A DNA stretch of 64,000 bases from Jannaschia aquimarina (GTDB taxonomy: Bacteria; Pseudomonadota; Alphaproteobacteria; Rhodobacterales; Rhodobacteraceae), in NCBI RefSeq assembly GCF_000877395.1, contig NZ_JYFE01000025.1, forward strand, positions 1-64,000, in the 5' to 3' direction. Position numbers and translations under genes: made by a program. Shown here in pieces: positions 12,916 to 40,120 of this stretch. Position 1 is the first letter of the stretch. Each line of letters opens with the position of its first letter. Below the pieces are notes generated by a model. That model made no database searches. It worked only from the letters and a program-made list of their open reading frames with translations, and was not told where the DNA came from.

Positions 12916-12943
12916 TTGACTTTGCTGCAGTGCAGCTTAATCT
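12916..12943 (+). promoter_or_regulatory. promoter with palindromic spacer, upstream of a cuckoo-type sRNA
   Basis: TTGACT (12916-12921) and TAATCT (12938-12943) are separated by 16 bases and resemble -35 and -10 elements. The spacer contains GCTGC-AGT-GCAGC (12924-12936), an inverted repeat that recurs with a different centre upstream of the DUF1127/cuckoo array (31038-31050), at the same distance from a TTG. A start near 12950 would fit the hairpins at 12961-13032. Confidence 0.6.
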
Positions 12944-12949
12944 CGGTCT

Positions 12950-13042
12950 CATCGAAGCAAGGGTCTCCTCCTCCCTGACCCGCGCCAAGATTGAATGCGC
13001 AGCCCCGCCCCACCTCCTCCCTGGGCGGGGCTGATGCGTTTT
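12950..13042 (+). ncRNA. solitary cuckoo-type small RNA (two hairpins with CCTCCTCCC loops)
   Basis: Two hairpins lie in the gap after sitD. The first has stem GGGTC/GACCC (12961-12965 with 12977-12981) and an 11-base loop holding TCCTCCTCCC. The second has a perfect 10-bp stem, AGCCCCGCCC with GGGCGGGGCT (13001-13010 with 13023-13032), a loop holding CCTCCTCCC, and a TTTT run at 13039-13042. Two stem-loops presenting the anti-Shine-Dalgarno-like CCUCCUCCC motif define the 'cuckoo' RNA family (CcsR RNAs) of Rhodobacteraceae. Those RNAs act in stress responses and can mimic the 16S rRNA tail or bind SD-like regions. The 5' end is estimated from the promoter at 12916-12943. The target is unknown. 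Confidence 0.7.
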
Positions 13043-13149
13043 CAGGGTACGGTCGTCCGGTTTGTCGCCGATCCGCGAACAAACTCATCGGAATCTGCCT
13101 TATTTCGGCCATCTTTGCGCCCCGCCAACCGCATCGTCCTTTGCTACCG

Positions 13150-31029: not shown

Positions 31030-31057
31030 TTGCAGATGCTGCATAGCAGCATTGACG
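31030..31057 (+). promoter_or_regulatory. candidate promoter/operator of the DUF1127-cuckoo RNA locus
   Basis: TTGCAG (31030-31035) is followed by a 16-base spacer holding GCTGC-ATA-GCAGC (31038-31050; flanked by A/T to a 7-bp repeat, ATGCTGC/GCAGCAT) and then TTGACG. The same inverted repeat in the same place after a TTG occurs at 12916-12943, before the solitary cuckoo RNA. The -10 here is poor for the housekeeping sigma factor, so an alternative factor such as RpoH may be used. Confidence 0.5.
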
Positions 31058-31183
31058 ACAGACCGATTGTGCGGCTGCAGCATGTGCCCCATCTGTTGGT
31101 CAACGAAACGAACGGCCCACGCCATCCGGGCGGGGCCGCACAGCCGGGGGCCGAAACGGCTCCGAACTTCGAGAGGAAACGAC

Positions 31184-31399
31184 ATGGCCTTCACCACTTA
31201 CGGCAGTGCCGAGCGTACCGCCACCTTCGGTCGTCTTGCCCTGCTCCGCAACGAGCTGGTCACCCGGTTCGCCAAGTGGCGGACCTACCGCAAGACGGTC
31301 AGCGAATTGTCCGAGTTGTCCGAGCGTGAGCTGGACGATCTGGGCCTCGCGCCCGGCGACATCCGCAACGTCGCCATGCAGGCAGCCTACGGCGCCTGA
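31184..31399 (+). CDS. ccaF1: small DUF1127 protein, CcaF1-like RNA-binding protein
   Basis: A 71-residue basic protein whose C-terminal half (RTYRKTVSELSELSERELDD, then LGLAPGDI) is the DUF1127 (YjiS-like) domain, with Arg- and Leu-rich helices. The ATG at 31184 follows GAGAGGAAAC. In Rhodobacter sphaeroides the homologous gene lies directly upstream of the CcsR1-4 RNAs; its product, CcaF1, binds RNA and affects sRNA maturation and turnover under stress. Here too the gene is followed within 22 bases by an array of CCUCC-loop hairpins, so the assignment by context is strong. It is probably cotranscribed with the array. Confidence 0.85.
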   Translation: MAFTTYGSAERTATFGRLALLRNELVTRFAKWRTYRKTVSELSELSERELDDLGLAPGDIRNVAMQAAYGA

Positions 31400-31414
31400 G
31401 CGATAGCGACGGAT

Positions 31415-31698
31415 CTCCCGGCGCCCTCCTCCCTGGGCGCGGCGGGGATCCTGACGGAGGCGGTCCATCCTCCCTTGGACCCCTTCGGACGACCCGGCCC
31501 CTTTCCTCCCATCGGGGTCGGCGATTGGACCGGCGGCACCCCCCTCCTCCCTCGGGGTGCCGCGCGGTCCAAGACATACCGTCCGGACGCATTCCTCCCT
31601 TCGCGTCCGAGACGGGCAGCGGCGGCCTCCTCCTCCCAAATCGGGGCCGTGCGCGACTTGAACGGCGGCGCCACTCCTCCCTTCGGCGCCGCCGTTTT
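31415..31698 (+). ncRNA. ccsR: array of cuckoo/CcsR-type RNAs: seven hairpins with TCCTCCC loops
   Basis: Seven successive stem-loops each expose TCCTCCC. Stems are 31421-31426/31435-31440, 31462-31467/31476-31481, 31496-31501/31514-31519, 31525-31542/31554-31572 (18 bp with one bulge), 31579-31590/31603-31615 (12 bp with one bulge), 31622-31627/31645-31650, and 31661-31672/31685-31696 (12 bp, perfect). The first two loops are identical (TCCTCCCT). Stem sequences differ while loops are conserved, which points to selection on the loop. In Rhodobacter sphaeroides four such RNAs of two hairpins each (CcsR1-4) are cut from one transcript with the DUF1127 mRNA. The CCUCC loop resembles the 3' end of 16S rRNA. 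How this transcript is cut cannot be seen. Confidence 0.85.
31661..31698 (+). terminator. terminator of the ccaF1-ccsR transcript
   Basis: The last hairpin (12-bp perfect stem AACGGCGGCGCC with its complement, 12-base loop ending in CTTC) runs into TTTT at 31695-31698. It therefore serves both as the final CCUCC hairpin and as a Rho-independent terminator. Confidence 0.85.
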
Positions 31699-31699
31699 C

Positions 31700-32080
31700 G
31701 TGCGTGGATTTCCCGAACGACGACACCGGCCCCGGAGCGCAGGCGCTACGGGGGGGGTGGTCGGGCCAGAGCGGCCAGAAGCCGCGAAATCTCGGATCTG
31801 GATGTGCCTGCAGGCGGACGCAGACATGAAGAGGAAGATCGGCGCCGTGGACGCGAACGTCCAGACATGGCCCGCGACGCGTCACCGCCGCCGGGCACCC
31901 GTTGGGCTCGTCCGGCTCGATGCCGGCTCGTCACCCGATGATCATGTGGGCGGAGCGCCGGGTCGGGCGCCCCCTGTCGTCTTCTTCGGTGTTCGAACGG
32001 TCGAAAGAAATCGGCCAGAGCGGTTAGCAAAGCGTAAAGACTAGGCAGAAATCGCCCCTTCTTCGCTTCTCAAATATCCC
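31700..32080. other. intergenic region, no supported gene
   Basis: About 380 bases between the ccsR terminator and the downstream element of uvrD. Reading frames on both strands are Arg/Pro/Ser-rich without family resemblance. The sequence GGCCAGAGCGG occurs twice (near 31764 and 32013). No tRNA, hairpin-terminator or promoter was recognised. Confidence 0.45.
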
Positions 32081-36454: not shown

Positions 36455-36679
36455 CGATGCCTGCGGGCCGCGTTCGGAAGTCGTCGGAGATTCTAGCCCA
36501 AGTTCCACAAGGCGACTATCGCCGCGATCTCAATCGACCCGACGTCCTTAGTGCGCTCCAATCACTCCGTCGGCGGACCAGCCCGATCGAGCAGAGGCCG
36601 CGCCCCCTCCCCACTTCCCCGGAGTTGCCGCGTTGCAGCGTTGACGTTACCAAACCGTCATCGACCCAGGGGGGACCGT

Positions 36680-39600
36680 ATGGCCGAGTTCAAGAAGATC
36701 CTCATCGCCAATCGCGGCGAGATCGCCATCCGTATCGCGCGCGCCGCCAACGAACTGGGCAAACGGACGGTGGCGGTCTACGCCGAAGAGGACAAGCTGG
36801 GCCTGCATCGGTTCAAGGCGGACGAGGCCTACAAGATCGGCGAGGGCATGGGGCCCGTGCAGGCCTACCTCTCGATCCCGGAGATCATCCGCGTCGCCCG
36901 CGAGTCCGGGGCCGACGCGATCCATCCGGGCTATGGGCTCCTGTCGGAGAACCCGGAATTCGTGGATGCCTGCGAGGCGAACGGGATCACATTCATCGGC
37001 CCCAAGGCCGAGACGATGCGCGCACTCGGCGACAAGGCCAGCGCCCGCCGGGTCGCCATCGAGGCGGGCGTGCCCGTCATCCCGGCGACCGAGGTCCTTG
37101 GCGACGACATGGCCGCAATCCGCAAGGAGGCCGGAGAGATCGGCTATCCGCTGATGCTCAAGGCGTCCTGGGGTGGAGGCGGCCGGGGCATGCGGCCGAT
37201 CTTCTCAGAGGAGGAGGTGGAGGAGAAGGTCCTCGAAGGCCGCCGGGAGGCCGAGGCCGCGTTCGGCAATGGCGAAGGCTATCTGGAGAAGATGATCCAG
37301 CGCGCCCGTCACGTGGAGGTGCAGATCCTCGGCGACAAGCACGGCGCGATGTATCACCTGTGGGAACGCGATTGCTCTGTCCAACGGCGCAATCAGAAGG
37401 TCGTGGAGCGGGCCCCTGCCCCCTATCTGTCGCCCGCCCAGCGCGAACAGATCTGCAATCTGGGCAAGCGCATCTGCGAGCATGTCAGCTACGAATGCGC
37501 GGGAACGGTCGAGTTCCTGATGGATATGGACTCGGGAGAATTCTACTTCATCGAGGTTAACCCTCGCGTTCAGGTCGAGCATACCGTCACCGAGGAAGTG
37601 ACGGGCATCGACATCGTCCGCGCACAGATCCTGATCGCCGAGGGCAAGAGCCTGACCGAAGCCACCGGCGTGCCCAGCCAGTATGACGTCCAGCTCGACG
37701 GGCACGCGATGCAGTGCCGGGTCACGACCGAGGACCCGACCAACAACTTCATCCCGGATTACGGGCGGATCACGACCTATCGCAGCGCGACGGGGATGGG
37801 CATCCGGCTCGACGGGGGCACCGCCTATTCCGGCGCGGTCATCACGCGCTACTACGACAGCCTGCTGACCAAGGTCACGGCCTGGGCCAAGACGCCCGAG
37901 GCCTGCATCGCCCGGATGGACCGCGCCCTGCGCGAGTTCCGCATCCGCGGGGTGACGACGAATATCGACTTCGTCATCAACCTGCTGAAGCACCCGACCT
38001 TCCTGTCGAACCAGTACACGACGAAGTTCATCGACGAGACGCCGGATCTGTTCGACTTCAGGCCCCGCCGCGACCGGGCGACGAAGCTGCTGACCTATAT
38101 CGCCGACATCACGGTGAACGGGCACCCGGAAACGGCAGGCCGGCCGCGCCCGCCCGCCGACATCCGGGCGCCACGCGCACCGGAGAAGTTGCGCGATACG
38201 CCACCGGACGGGACGCGTCAGATCCTCGAACGCGAGGGCGCCAAGGGCCTCGCCGACTGGATGCTCGCACAGGATCGTCTGTTGCTGACCGACACGACCA
38301 TGCGGGACGGGCACCAGTCGCTGCTGGCCACGCGGATGCGGTCGATCGACATGGTACGGGCCGCCCCTGCCTACGCGGCGAACCTGCCGCAGCTCTTCAG
38401 CGTCGAATGCTGGGGCGGCGCCACCTTCGACGTCGCCTACCGGTTCCTGCAGGAATGCCCGTGGCAGCGGCTGCGCGACCTGCGCAAGGCGATGCCCAAC
38501 CTGCTGACGCAAATGCTGCTGCGCGCATCGAACGGGGTCGGCTATACCAACTATCCCGACAATGTCGTGCAGGCCTTCGTGAAACAGGCCGCCGAGACCG
38601 GCGTCGATGTCTTCCGCGTCTTCGACAGCCTCAACTGGGTCGAGAACATGCGCGTCGCGATGGATGCCGTCATCGAGACCGGCAAGGTCTGCGAAGGGAC
38701 GGTCTGCTACACCGGCGATATCCTCGACCCGGATCGGTCGAAATACGACCTGAAGTATTACGTCGATATGGCCAAGGAGCTTGAGGCCGCCGGCGCGCAG
38801 GTCCTCGGCCTCAAGGACATGGCCGGACTGCTCAAGCCGGCCGCGGCAACGGCCCTCTTCAAGGCTCTCAAGGACGAGGTCGGCCTGCCGATTCACTTCC
38901 ATACCCACGATACGGCGGGGATCGCCTGCGGGACGATCCTCGCGGCCGCCGAGGCCGGGGTCGATGCCGCCGACGTCGCGATGGACGCGCTGTCGGGGAA
39001 CACCTCGCAGGCGACCTTCGGCACGGTAGTCAATTCCCTGAGGGGGCATCCGCGCGACACGGGGATCGACCTCAAGACCGTCTGGGCCATGTCCGACTAC
39101 TGGGAAGCGGTGCGCGCGCAGTATCTGGCCTTCGAGAGCGGGATGCAGGCGCCGTCGTCCGAAGTCTACCTGCACGAGATGCCGGGCGGGCAGTTCACCA
39201 ACCTCAAGGCGCAGGCGCGTTCGATGGGACTTGAGGACCGGTGGCGCGAAGTGGCGCAGATGTACGCGGACGTGAACGCCATGTTCGGCGACATCGTCAA
39301 GGTCACGCCGTCCTCGAAGGTGGTGGGTGACATGGCGCTGATGATGGTGGCGCAGGGGCTCACGGTGGAACAGGTCCTCGATCCGAAGATCGAGGTCGCC
39401 TTCCCCGACAGCGTCATCGACATGATGCGCGGCAATCTGGGACAACCGCCCGGCGGCTGGCCCGCCAAGCTGCAGAAGAAGGTGCTCAAGGGCGAGAAAC
39501 CGGCGACCGATCGACCAGGCAAGCATCTCGATCCCGTGAACCTGGAAGCGGTGCGCGCGGAGATCGCCGAGAAGCTGGGACAGACGATCGACGACGAGGA

Positions 39601-40120
39601 TCTGAACGGCTACCTGATGTATCCCAAGGTCTTTTCCGATTATGCGGAGCGGCATCAGACCTATGGTCCCGTCCGCGCCCTGCCGACGCCCGTCTTCTTC
39701 TACGGGATGGAGCCGGGGGACGAGATCGAGGCAGAGATCGACCCCGGCGTGACGCTGGAGATCCGGCTCCAGGCGGTCTCCGAAACGCATGACGACGGCG
39801 AGGTCCGCGCCTTCTTCGAGTTGAACGGCCAGCCCCGCGTGATCCGAGTGCCCGACCGCAAGGTCGCAGGCAGCGCGGCCCGGCGCCCGAAGGCGGAGTT
39901 GGGGAACGAGGCTCATGTCGGCGCACCGATGCCGGGTGTCGTCGCCAGCGTGACGGTTTCCGAGGGTGCGAGCGTGAAAAAAGGCGATCTGCTGCTCACG
40001 ATCGAGGCGATGAAGATGGAGACAGGCCTTCATGCGGAGCGCGACGCCAAGGTTGCGCGCATCCATGTGACGCCCGGAGCCCAGATCGACGCGAAGGACC
40101 TGCTTGTCGAACTCGAGTGA
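36680..40120 (+). CDS. pyc: pyruvate carboxylase
   Basis: A 1146-residue single-chain, biotin-dependent pyruvate carboxylase making oxaloacetate from pyruvate and bicarbonate. The biotin carboxylase domain (about 1-450) begins KKILIANRGEIAIRIARAAN and has the ATP loop KASWGGGGRGMR near 160. The carboxyltransferase domain (about 520-810) starts LLLTDTTMRDGHQSLLATRM and includes GLKDMAGLLKPAAATAL. The C-terminal biotinyl domain carries EAMKMETG with the biotinylated Lys near 1112. Length and domain order are normal. It replenishes the TCA cycle. The ATG at 36680 follows GGGGGACCGT. Confidence 0.97.
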   Translation: MAEFKKILIANRGEIAIRIARAANELGKRTVAVYAEEDKLGLHRFKADEAYKIGEGMGPVQAYLSIPEIIRVARESGADAIHPGYGLLSENPEFVDACEANGITFIGPKAETMRALGDKASARRVAIEAGVPVIPATEVLGDDMAAIRKEAGEIGYPLMLKASWGGGGRGMRPIFSEEEVEEKVLEGRREAEAAFGNGEGYLEKMIQRARHVEVQILGDKHGAMYHLWERDCSVQRRNQKVVERAPAPYLSPAQREQICNLGKRICEHVSYECAGTVEFLMDMDSGEFYFIEVNPRVQVEHTVTEEVTGIDIVRAQILIAEGKSLTEATGVPSQYDVQLDGHAMQCRVTTEDPTNNFIPDYGRITTYRSATGMGIRLDGGTAYSGAVITRYYDSLLTKVTAWAKTPEACIARMDRALREFRIRGVTTNIDFVINLLKHPTFLSNQYTTKFIDETPDLFDFRPRRDRATKLLTYIADITVNGHPETAGRPRPPADIRAPRAPEKLRDTPPDGTRQILEREGAKGLADWMLAQDRLLLTDTTMRDGHQSLLATRMRSIDMVRAAPAYAANLPQLFSVECWGGATFDVAYRFLQECPWQRLRDLRKAMPNLLTQMLLRASNGVGYTNYPDNVVQAFVKQAAETGVDVFRVFDSLNWVENMRVAMDAVIETGKVCEGTVCYTGDILDPDRSKYDLKYYVDMAKELEAAGAQVLGLKDMAGLLKPAAATALFKALKDEVGLPIHFHTHDTAGIACGTILAAAEAGVDAADVAMDALSGNTSQATFGTVVNSLRGHPRDTGIDLKTVWAMSDYWEAVRAQYLAFESGMQAPSSEVYLHEMPGGQFTNLKAQARSMGLEDRWREVAQMYADVNAMFGDIVKVTPSSKVVGDMALMMVAQGLTVEQVLDPKIEVAFPDSVIDMMRGNLGQPPGGWPAKLQKKVLKGEKPATDRPGKHLDPVNLEAVRAEIAEKLGQTIDDEDLNGYLMYPKVFSDYAERHQTYGPVRALPTPVFFYGMEPGDEIEAEIDPGVTLEIRLQAVSETHDDGEVRAFFELNGQPRVIRVPDRKVAGSAARRPKAELGNEAHVGAPMPGVVASVTVSEGASVKKGDLLLTIEAMKMETGLHAERDAKVARIHVTPGAQIDAKDLLVELE

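Follow-up and report, generated by a model that had tools for sequence, protein, structure and literature searches.

In Jannaschia aquimarina a short DUF1127 gene is followed by seven hairpins whose conservation is directed at the loop, and the conserved promoter region in front of the gene resembles the phasin operators of the genus. We consider it probable that the locus is an operon controlled by stress and by carbon storage, in which one transcript would encode an RNA-binding DUF1127 protein and continue into the seven-hairpin chain; PhaR would repress it, and the loops would block the translation of uptake transporters. The whole analysed stretch of 64,000 nt is termed the window. Beyond the content of an earlier note on this DNA, a promoter box and a second cuckoo locus were found in the same window.

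Hairpin array and locus type

The gene and the hairpins have the following positions:

31184..31399, + strand: DUF1127 protein, 71 aa, CcaF1-like (Pfam PF06568, E 7.3e-14)
31411..31451, + strand: hairpin 1 (genus H1), 15 bp, loop TCCTCCCT
31455..31487, + strand: hairpin 2 (genus H2), 12 bp
31494..31521, + strand: hairpin 3 (genus H3), 8 bp
31525..31572, + strand: hairpin 4 (genus H5), 18 bp, one bulge; genus median 18 bp
31579..31615, + strand: hairpin 5 (genus H6), 12 bp, one bulge
31619..31654, + strand: hairpin 6 (genus H7), 10 bp
31660..31697, + strand: hairpin 7 (genus H8), 13 bp; possible terminator, tail TTTTC

Seven stem-loops with TCCTCCC in the loop behind a DUF1127 gene had been described before, and folding, shuffled sequences and the Pfam match bore this out. 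The loop motifs start at 31427, 31468, 31504, 31545, 31593, 31631 and 31675, all on one strand. Seven of the 13 TCCTCCC copies of the window are packed into 255 nt 3' of the DUF1127 gene; the window-wide total is not over-represented (13 observed vs 14.1 expected), and the exceptional aspect is the clustering, not the total count. The unconstrained fold of 31396-31710 had an energy of -179.8 kcal/mol (z -6.6) that none of 100 shuffles matched, and its centroid contains all seven hairpins. Five hundred dinucleotide shuffles of 31400-31700 presented at most two TCCTCCC copies and at most two hairpins with a CCTCC loop, against seven observed in both cases.

The short DUF1127 gene sits directly upstream on the same strand and the hairpins of the 3' region display CCUCC loops in seven of seven cases: the locus is of the CIN1 type described in PMC10253847, a DUF1127 gene with a CcsR/cuckoo-like RNA. 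The earlier note had proposed a cuckoo array behind a DUF1127 gene and pointed to the matching place of the CcsR RNAs in Rhodobacter sphaeroides. According to the secondary source PMC4504443, cuckoo RNAs keep a loop motif on helices without conservation, a pattern also present in the array, and possess 2-4 hairpins each; the array has seven in one chain, a comparison made before any processing into units. Processing into separate sRNAs, carried out by RNase E at CIN1 loci, may differ in the array, because the linkers between its hairpins measure only 3-6 nt.

With ccaF1-CcsR1-4 of R. sphaeroides (RF02791; CIN1) the locus shares a short DUF1127 gene followed by CCUCC-loop hairpins on one strand, a conserved promoter region and a final hairpin with a T run. 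The CcsR1-4 type differs by its two-hairpin units with linkers of about 30 nt (eight hairpins in genome G154), and the CcsR1 covariance model reached only 26.2 bits on the array, at 31616-31698, against a gathering cut-off of 65.3. The other relative is NfeR1/ar14 of Sinorhizobium meliloti (RF02344), likewise several hairpins with anti-Shine-Dalgarno loops and variable stems, which differs in having three hairpins, its own promoter and nitrogen control. The ar14 model gave the best Rfam match of the array, 43.2 bits, under its cut-off of 58.8. The covariance search suggested in the earlier note thus yielded matches, all of them sub-threshold, and membership at the Rfam gathering level was rejected; only two tRNAs pass the cut-offs in the window. 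A protein scan of named genomes for the locus returned only four loci, one of which (Plesiocystis) is probably unrelated.

Conservation within the genus

A DUF1127 homologue followed by CCUCC hairpins was present in all 20 genus genomes, J. aquimarina included (G012 was taken from a separate set of loci). Unconstrained folding of the aligned arrays yielded 178 hairpins of at least 5 bp, 146 of them with a CCTCC loop, 5-11 per genome. All seven loops of J. aquimarina contain CCTCC; in every one of the 19 relatives one or more hairpins carry a different loop, often, as judged by eye, in the linker between array hairpins five and six. Loss of the loop from a retained stem was confined to scattered single hairpins. 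By alignment the genus has a common plan of eight hairpins, H1-H8. H4, present in 14 of the 20 genomes, is absent here, as is the linker hairpin, so that the array is a trimmed, compact version of this plan.

The two stems formerly singled out as much longer, 18 bp and 12 bp with one bulge each, are real; three others, however, match or exceed 12 bp, namely the first with 15 bp, the second with 12 bp and the last with 13 bp. Nor are the two singled-out stems special to J. aquimarina: long stems are common in the genus, with medians of 18 bp for H5, 12 bp for H6 and 19 bp for H8. That the last hairpin doubles as terminator is plausible, but only TTTTC follows it; several congeners have longer T runs and a few none (e.g., G010, G019). 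In the alignment of this hairpin from 20 genomes 98.6 % of the cells pair, and 8 of 11 pairs have changed on both sides; a one-column shift of the partner lowered the pairing to 35 %. These two-sided changes argue that the loop is under selection and that compensation maintains the stems, in line with the earlier proposal of loop-directed selection on variable stems.

CcsR arrays in other genera

At least 99 of 120 family genomes match the Rfam CcsR1 model, seven of them above the curated cut-off, among the best matches listed. Alignment to the model revealed that it represents a two-hairpin unit; thus the four CcsRs of R. sphaeroides are about eight hairpins, and seven hairpins are therefore unremarkable and do not exceed the R. 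sphaeroides locus. A locus of four units and eight hairpins in G154 was taken as the R. sphaeroides CcsR type. Seven hairpins as a record were rejected as well: the largest arrays fetched from other genera have 14 (G094) or 13 hairpins (G131, G068, G134), so that the proposed comparison of hairpin numbers spans 5-11 per congener and up to 14 in other genera. The arrays of other genera are mostly hairpin pairs set apart by linkers of roughly 25-55 nt, or of some 10 nt in G082. The locus is of a known kind; its architecture is compact, yet not exceptional, and ordinary for the genus.

Two side observations concern these arrays. The linkers between two-hairpin CcsR units in other genera (L084, L087, L088) often seem, by eye, foldable into a small hairpin, e.g., CCGGGCCACGTGCCCG in G131, which is repeated along with the CcsR unit. 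Locus L089 (G026 C6:20400-23600), an apparent tandem duplication of the operon, contains four DUF1127 genes in a row, three of them followed by CCUCC hairpins and two of these three with a TGC box.

Promoter region of the array

Three elements were located upstream of the DUF1127 gene:

31035..31053, + strand: PhaR-type operator-like box GATGCTGCATAGCAGCATT, 20.6 bits, containing CTGCATAGCAG at 31039-31049
31067..31094, + strand: RpoH-like promoter TTGTGC-N14-CCCCATCT, by likeness to the RpoH consensus
31067-31084, + strand: second TGC-rich element TTGTGCGGCTGCAGCATG, the first part of the RpoH-like promoter; spacing 4, not 3; kept in the genus

The elements at 31067-31094 are presumably an RpoH-like promoter, judged by the RpoH consensus; an RpoHI/RpoHII promoter is among the features of CIN1 loci. 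Neither TTGTGC nor the C-A-x-x-T of the promoter's second element varies among the 20 genus sequences, and the 20 aligned upstream regions read TGCYGCATRGCRGCAWTG, a gap, TTGTGC, NGCAGCA-like letters and a CCAT-like element. A search for a sigma-70 promoter before the DUF1127 gene found none. The second TGC-rich element was rejected as a normal PhaR box (-1.6 bits); it resembles the mmgR promoter site CAATTGTGCACCGCAGCATTA of S. meliloti, which has one base less between its halves (PMC12542648).

PhaR is a regulator that binds polyhydroxybutyrate (PHB) granules and, in S. meliloti, also the promoter of the sRNA mmgR; its site in R. sphaeroides is given as CTGCNNNGCAG (both PMC12542648). The box at 31035 matches this site exactly, so that the promoter carries a CTGCNNNGCAG/phaP-type box as in the PhaR regulon, with a centre base deviating from YGCRNYGCR. 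Counterparts of at least 16.4 bits precede the array in 20 of 20 genus genomes. They share a 17-nt frame, ATGCYGCANNGCRGCAT, with the phaP promoters of the genus, which differ by having two boxes 26-29 nt apart with a central pyrimidine. The centre of the array box is A or G in all 20 genomes (consistently ATR), against the pyrimidine of the phaP core YGCRNYGCR, and on account of this purine a protein other than PhaR is possible at the box; the box of G119, from another genus, has a central pyrimidine. The array box lies upstream of the -35 region, a position less typical for a repressor. Its score of 20.6 bits is below that of the lowest training box (21.5) of the matrix described in the next section and above that of the second phaP box of J. 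aquimarina (19.1). A search of the J. aquimarina genome for the first box with at most one mismatch retrieved four places, among them the array promoter and the gap between phaC and the phasin-like gene. Both phaR (PF07879) and a phaP homologue were found in 20 of 20 genus genomes, J. aquimarina included, where phaP was assigned from a Phasin_2 match of 21.0 bits (cut-off 24.9) and its place beside phaC and near phaR.

PHB synthesis is a known target of several sRNAs, and MmgR is a 77-nt RNA acting on phasin expression (PMC9049629). With MmgR of S. meliloti, an sRNA with a PhaR-bound promoter (PMC12542648), the array was compared by the site alone; within the literature searched MmgR is the only sRNA described with its own promoter under PhaR control. 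The S. meliloti PhaR study makes no mention of DUF1127 in its main text, and a literature search for DUF1127 or CcsR together with PhaR or PHB, with most subscription papers outside its range, returned no title on such a link.

PhaR matrix and second cuckoo locus

A symmetric 19-nt matrix was built from 38 boxes, two from each of 19 congener phaP promoters, with J. aquimarina left out, and used to scan the approximately 64,000 positions of the window. Further features entering at this point are:

12921..12939, + strand: PhaR-type box of the second cuckoo locus, 22.8 bits; canonical phaP-type core CTGCAGTGCAG at 12925-12935
12957..13041, + strand: second cuckoo locus, two hairpins of 7 and 18 bp; no DUF1127 gene
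36624..36642, + strand: third-best PhaR-type box, 14.0 bits, 37 nt before pyruvate carboxylase
36680-40120: pyruvate carboxylase (pyc), PYC_OADA and biotin carboxylase domains

The highest score in the window was obtained at 12921 before the second cuckoo locus and the second highest at 31035 in the array promoter. The box before pyc ranked third; pyc/Pyc is among the proteins downregulated by PhaR in S. meliloti (PMC12542648). Rank 4 (53192, 12.6 bits) lies inside a coding frame, glycosyltransferase-like by eye, and was discarded as a probable chance match, and all remaining positions scored below 8 bits. One of 200 simulated windows reached 20.6 bits (its maximum being 23.3), and one of 500 permuted matrices placed both top matches in the two cuckoo promoters.

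The second cuckoo locus folds with a z of -4.1 (12945-13045), has a TTGAC-like element directly before it, and was scored by the ar14 model with 36.4 bits, under the cut-off. It was recognised in 15 of 20 genus genomes, its sequence conserved as judged by eye. In 14 of 14 relatives the top-scoring box of a 1-kb stretch lies just before the locus, with scores from -4.8 to 20.4; its distance to the first loop is 46-52 nt in 13 of these relatives, and two genus members stay below 5 bits (G011 -4.8, G005 4.8).

Distribution of the box in the family

A full box was found upstream of 29 of 34 DUF1127 genes with an array vs none of 36 without (Fisher 7e-15, among related genomes), a count that covers all 70 DUF1127 matches with a motif written after many scored arrays had been seen. 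Two genes depart from this pattern: in G022 an array gene has no box (-5.6 bits), and in G031 (L067) a box of 23.4 bits lies further upstream of a DUF1127 gene that has no array. The strict short site CTGCNNNGCAG was present before 10 of 34 array vs 5 of 36 array-less DUF1127 genes (p 0.15), with one end base relaxed before 26 of 34 vs 5 of 36, and four times in the window vs 1.8 expected; the strict pattern was rejected as a discriminator, only the longer box separating well. The array-less DUF1127 genes of G031 and G032 (L067, L183, L184) have CTGCNNNGCAG sites upstream.

In 16 of 16 arrays from other genera the top-scoring box of the stretch is placed 337-443 nt ahead of the first loop, with about 10 bits or more in 13 of them and less in G154 (2.9), G082 (1.5) and G129 (7.7); these arrays were hand-picked, non-randomly, from CcsR-positive genomes, and four genus members among the 20 loci were left out and scored elsewhere. 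Among the matches listed for 120 family genomes, the exact 18-nt motif occurred in 50 of 99 genomes with a CcsR match vs 3 of 21 without (p 0.003) and was absent or variant in the other 49 CcsR-positive genomes. Of its 56 places, 35 belong to genomes for which a CcsR match had been copied by hand, as a selection of the listed best matches; at 31 of these 35 such a match follows 1-900 nt downstream on that strand, and one more motif place, the 32nd (G032), precedes an array.

An alternative that we rate as unlikely, if still the strongest, sees here a usual CIN1 locus governed solely by RpoH-type stress control, with TGC boxes that belong to another activator or to the promoter itself and are unrelated to PhaR. 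The ATR centre, consistent in the genus and unlike the phaP boxes, would fit this, as would the association of the long box with arrays and not with DUF1127 genes in general. It accounts poorly for the canonical phaP-type core at the second cuckoo locus, a locus lacking a DUF1127 gene, and for two cuckoo promoters outranking all other window positions with a matrix that never saw them. The new claim, a probable PHB-linked control of the array via PhaR, is supported by the independent matrix, the co-occurrence across genera and pyc as a neighbouring match.

Loop pairing and candidate targets

Duplex energies of the loop UCCUCCC were -12.2 kcal/mol with GGGAGGA, -9.9 with AGGAGGA and -6.2 with AAGGAGA, GGGAGGA being favoured by 2.3 and 6.0 kcal/mol, respectively. 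GGGAGGA precedes an ATG by 4-10 nt at 149 places in the genome, compared to 10 for the reversed control pattern. Candidate targets were sampled as the first 30 loci by contig order per pattern, of 149, 85 and 107 matches; five short ORFs were dropped for GGGAGGA, six short ORFs and one locus without an ORF for AAGGAGA, and three duplicates and four short ORFs for AGGAGGA. In this one genome uptake-transport components, identified by Pfam, made up 9 of 25 ORFs behind GGGAGGA, seven of the nine being binding proteins, compared to 0 of 23 behind AAGGAGA and 1 of 23 behind AGGAGGA. ORFs without a Pfam match (4 of 25, 6 of 23 and 6 of 23), some of which may not be genes, were counted as non-transport, including the binding-protein-like L111. 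The bias (9/25 vs 1/46) had a Fisher p of 2e-4 against both controls and 0.011 against AGGAGGA alone, in a comparison of one genome and 25 GGGAGGA ORFs made after the NfeR1 literature had been seen. Among the AGGAGGA controls was a PHB depolymerase gene (PHB_depo_C, L253, C5:15277), near phaC on the same contig.

The loops of NfeR1 pair with mRNA and block the Shine-Dalgarno sequence (PMC10746234), and its predicted targets are mostly transporter mRNAs, some of them silenced through the anti-Shine-Dalgarno loops (PMC7143759, PMC10746234). The bias of the small sample agrees with this targeting. The array most likely acts by a translation block of GGGAGGA-led mRNAs; Shine-Dalgarno blocking had been proposed before and, demonstrated for the related NfeR1, is also the mechanism favoured here.

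Loop-only conservation would equally suit a protein site, and for CcaF1 both RNA binding and an effect on CcsR maturation have been reported (PMC10253847, PMC12501420). With a DUF1127 gene in the same operon, the array might act as a protein sponge or reservoir, its CCUCC hairpins being recognised by an RNA-binding partner (the DUF1127 protein itself or Hfq), with antisense pairing in a secondary role. We regard this as improbable in view of the second cuckoo locus without a DUF1127 gene, the base-pairing of NfeR1 loops with mRNA (PMC10746234) and the functional bias of the genes behind GGGAGGA.

CCUCC is also the core of the 16S anti-Shine-Dalgarno sequence, and the loop is able to bind every GGAGG sequence (-7.9 kcal/mol), so the RNA could be imagined as a general mimic that competes with 16S rRNA for mRNA and damps translation at large without selectivity. 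The conserved loop, however, is UCCUCCC and not the 16S sequence CCUCCUUU, and the preference for GGGAGGA over the two other sites renders this still more doubtful than a protein sponge. Repetitive or structured DNA without RNA function, e.g., a repeat expansion, is practically dismissed despite similar tandem elements in an intergenic stretch: the stems differ among the hairpins, the covariation in 8 of 11 pairs of the last hairpin contradicts it, and array and promoter are kept genus-wide. These alternatives are not mutually exclusive.

Proposed regulation

For the proposed operon controlled by PhaR and stress, transcription would start from the RpoH-type promoter. PhaR would bind the upstream box and lower the expression in cells without PHB, and PHB granules would titrate PhaR away and release the operon, as described for phasins. 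Base-pairing of the UCCUCCC loops with GGGAGGA Shine-Dalgarno sequences would then keep mRNAs, mainly those of uptake transporters, from being translated; the repeated hairpins may provide dose and redundancy, comparable to the three redundant motifs of NfeR1. Under this logic nutrient uptake would be cut when carbon is already stored or under stress.

CcsR/cuckoo RNAs have been described as stress RNAs, and the PhaR-type box suggests that stored carbon helps to control the arrays. A modulating effect of CcsRs on the pyruvate dehydrogenase complex has been reported (PMC8625941). Provided that the arrays are under PhaR control, PHB storage, stress sigma factors, pyruvate metabolism and nutrient uptake would be connected by a single circuit in a large bacterial family. 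Tentatively, and with less confidence than for the single operon, we propose that the cuckoo/CcsR arrays of the Rhodobacteraceae belong to the PhaR regulon: the PHB granule would titrate PhaR, the RNAs would silence GGGAGGA-led uptake-transporter genes so that stored carbon represses uptake, and some mRNA leaders would answer with mirror hairpins bearing the loop AAGGGAGGAG.

Leader hairpins

'Type 3' places, considered as a third cuckoo locus, were rejected in this role and fit better as a leader hairpin on the other strand. In six congeners (L147, L148, L149, L150, L151, L152) a GC-rich leader hairpin precedes a gene whose product starts with MPKD.GIGAS..RREDVRFLTGKGRYTDDI. Its loop is AAGGGAGGAG in four congeners, AGGGAGGAG in G002 and TTGGGAGG in G012; AAGGGAGGAG complements the cuckoo loop CUCCUCCCUU exactly, the match being perfect in four of the six and one base shorter in a fifth. 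The hairpin is a possible loop-loop target or sponge for cuckoo RNAs. It is located 46-65 nt before a GGGAGGA Shine-Dalgarno sequence, and the gene behind it is of the aldehyde-oxidase/xanthine-dehydrogenase type, with an Ald_Xan_dh_C domain in the one case tested (L150).
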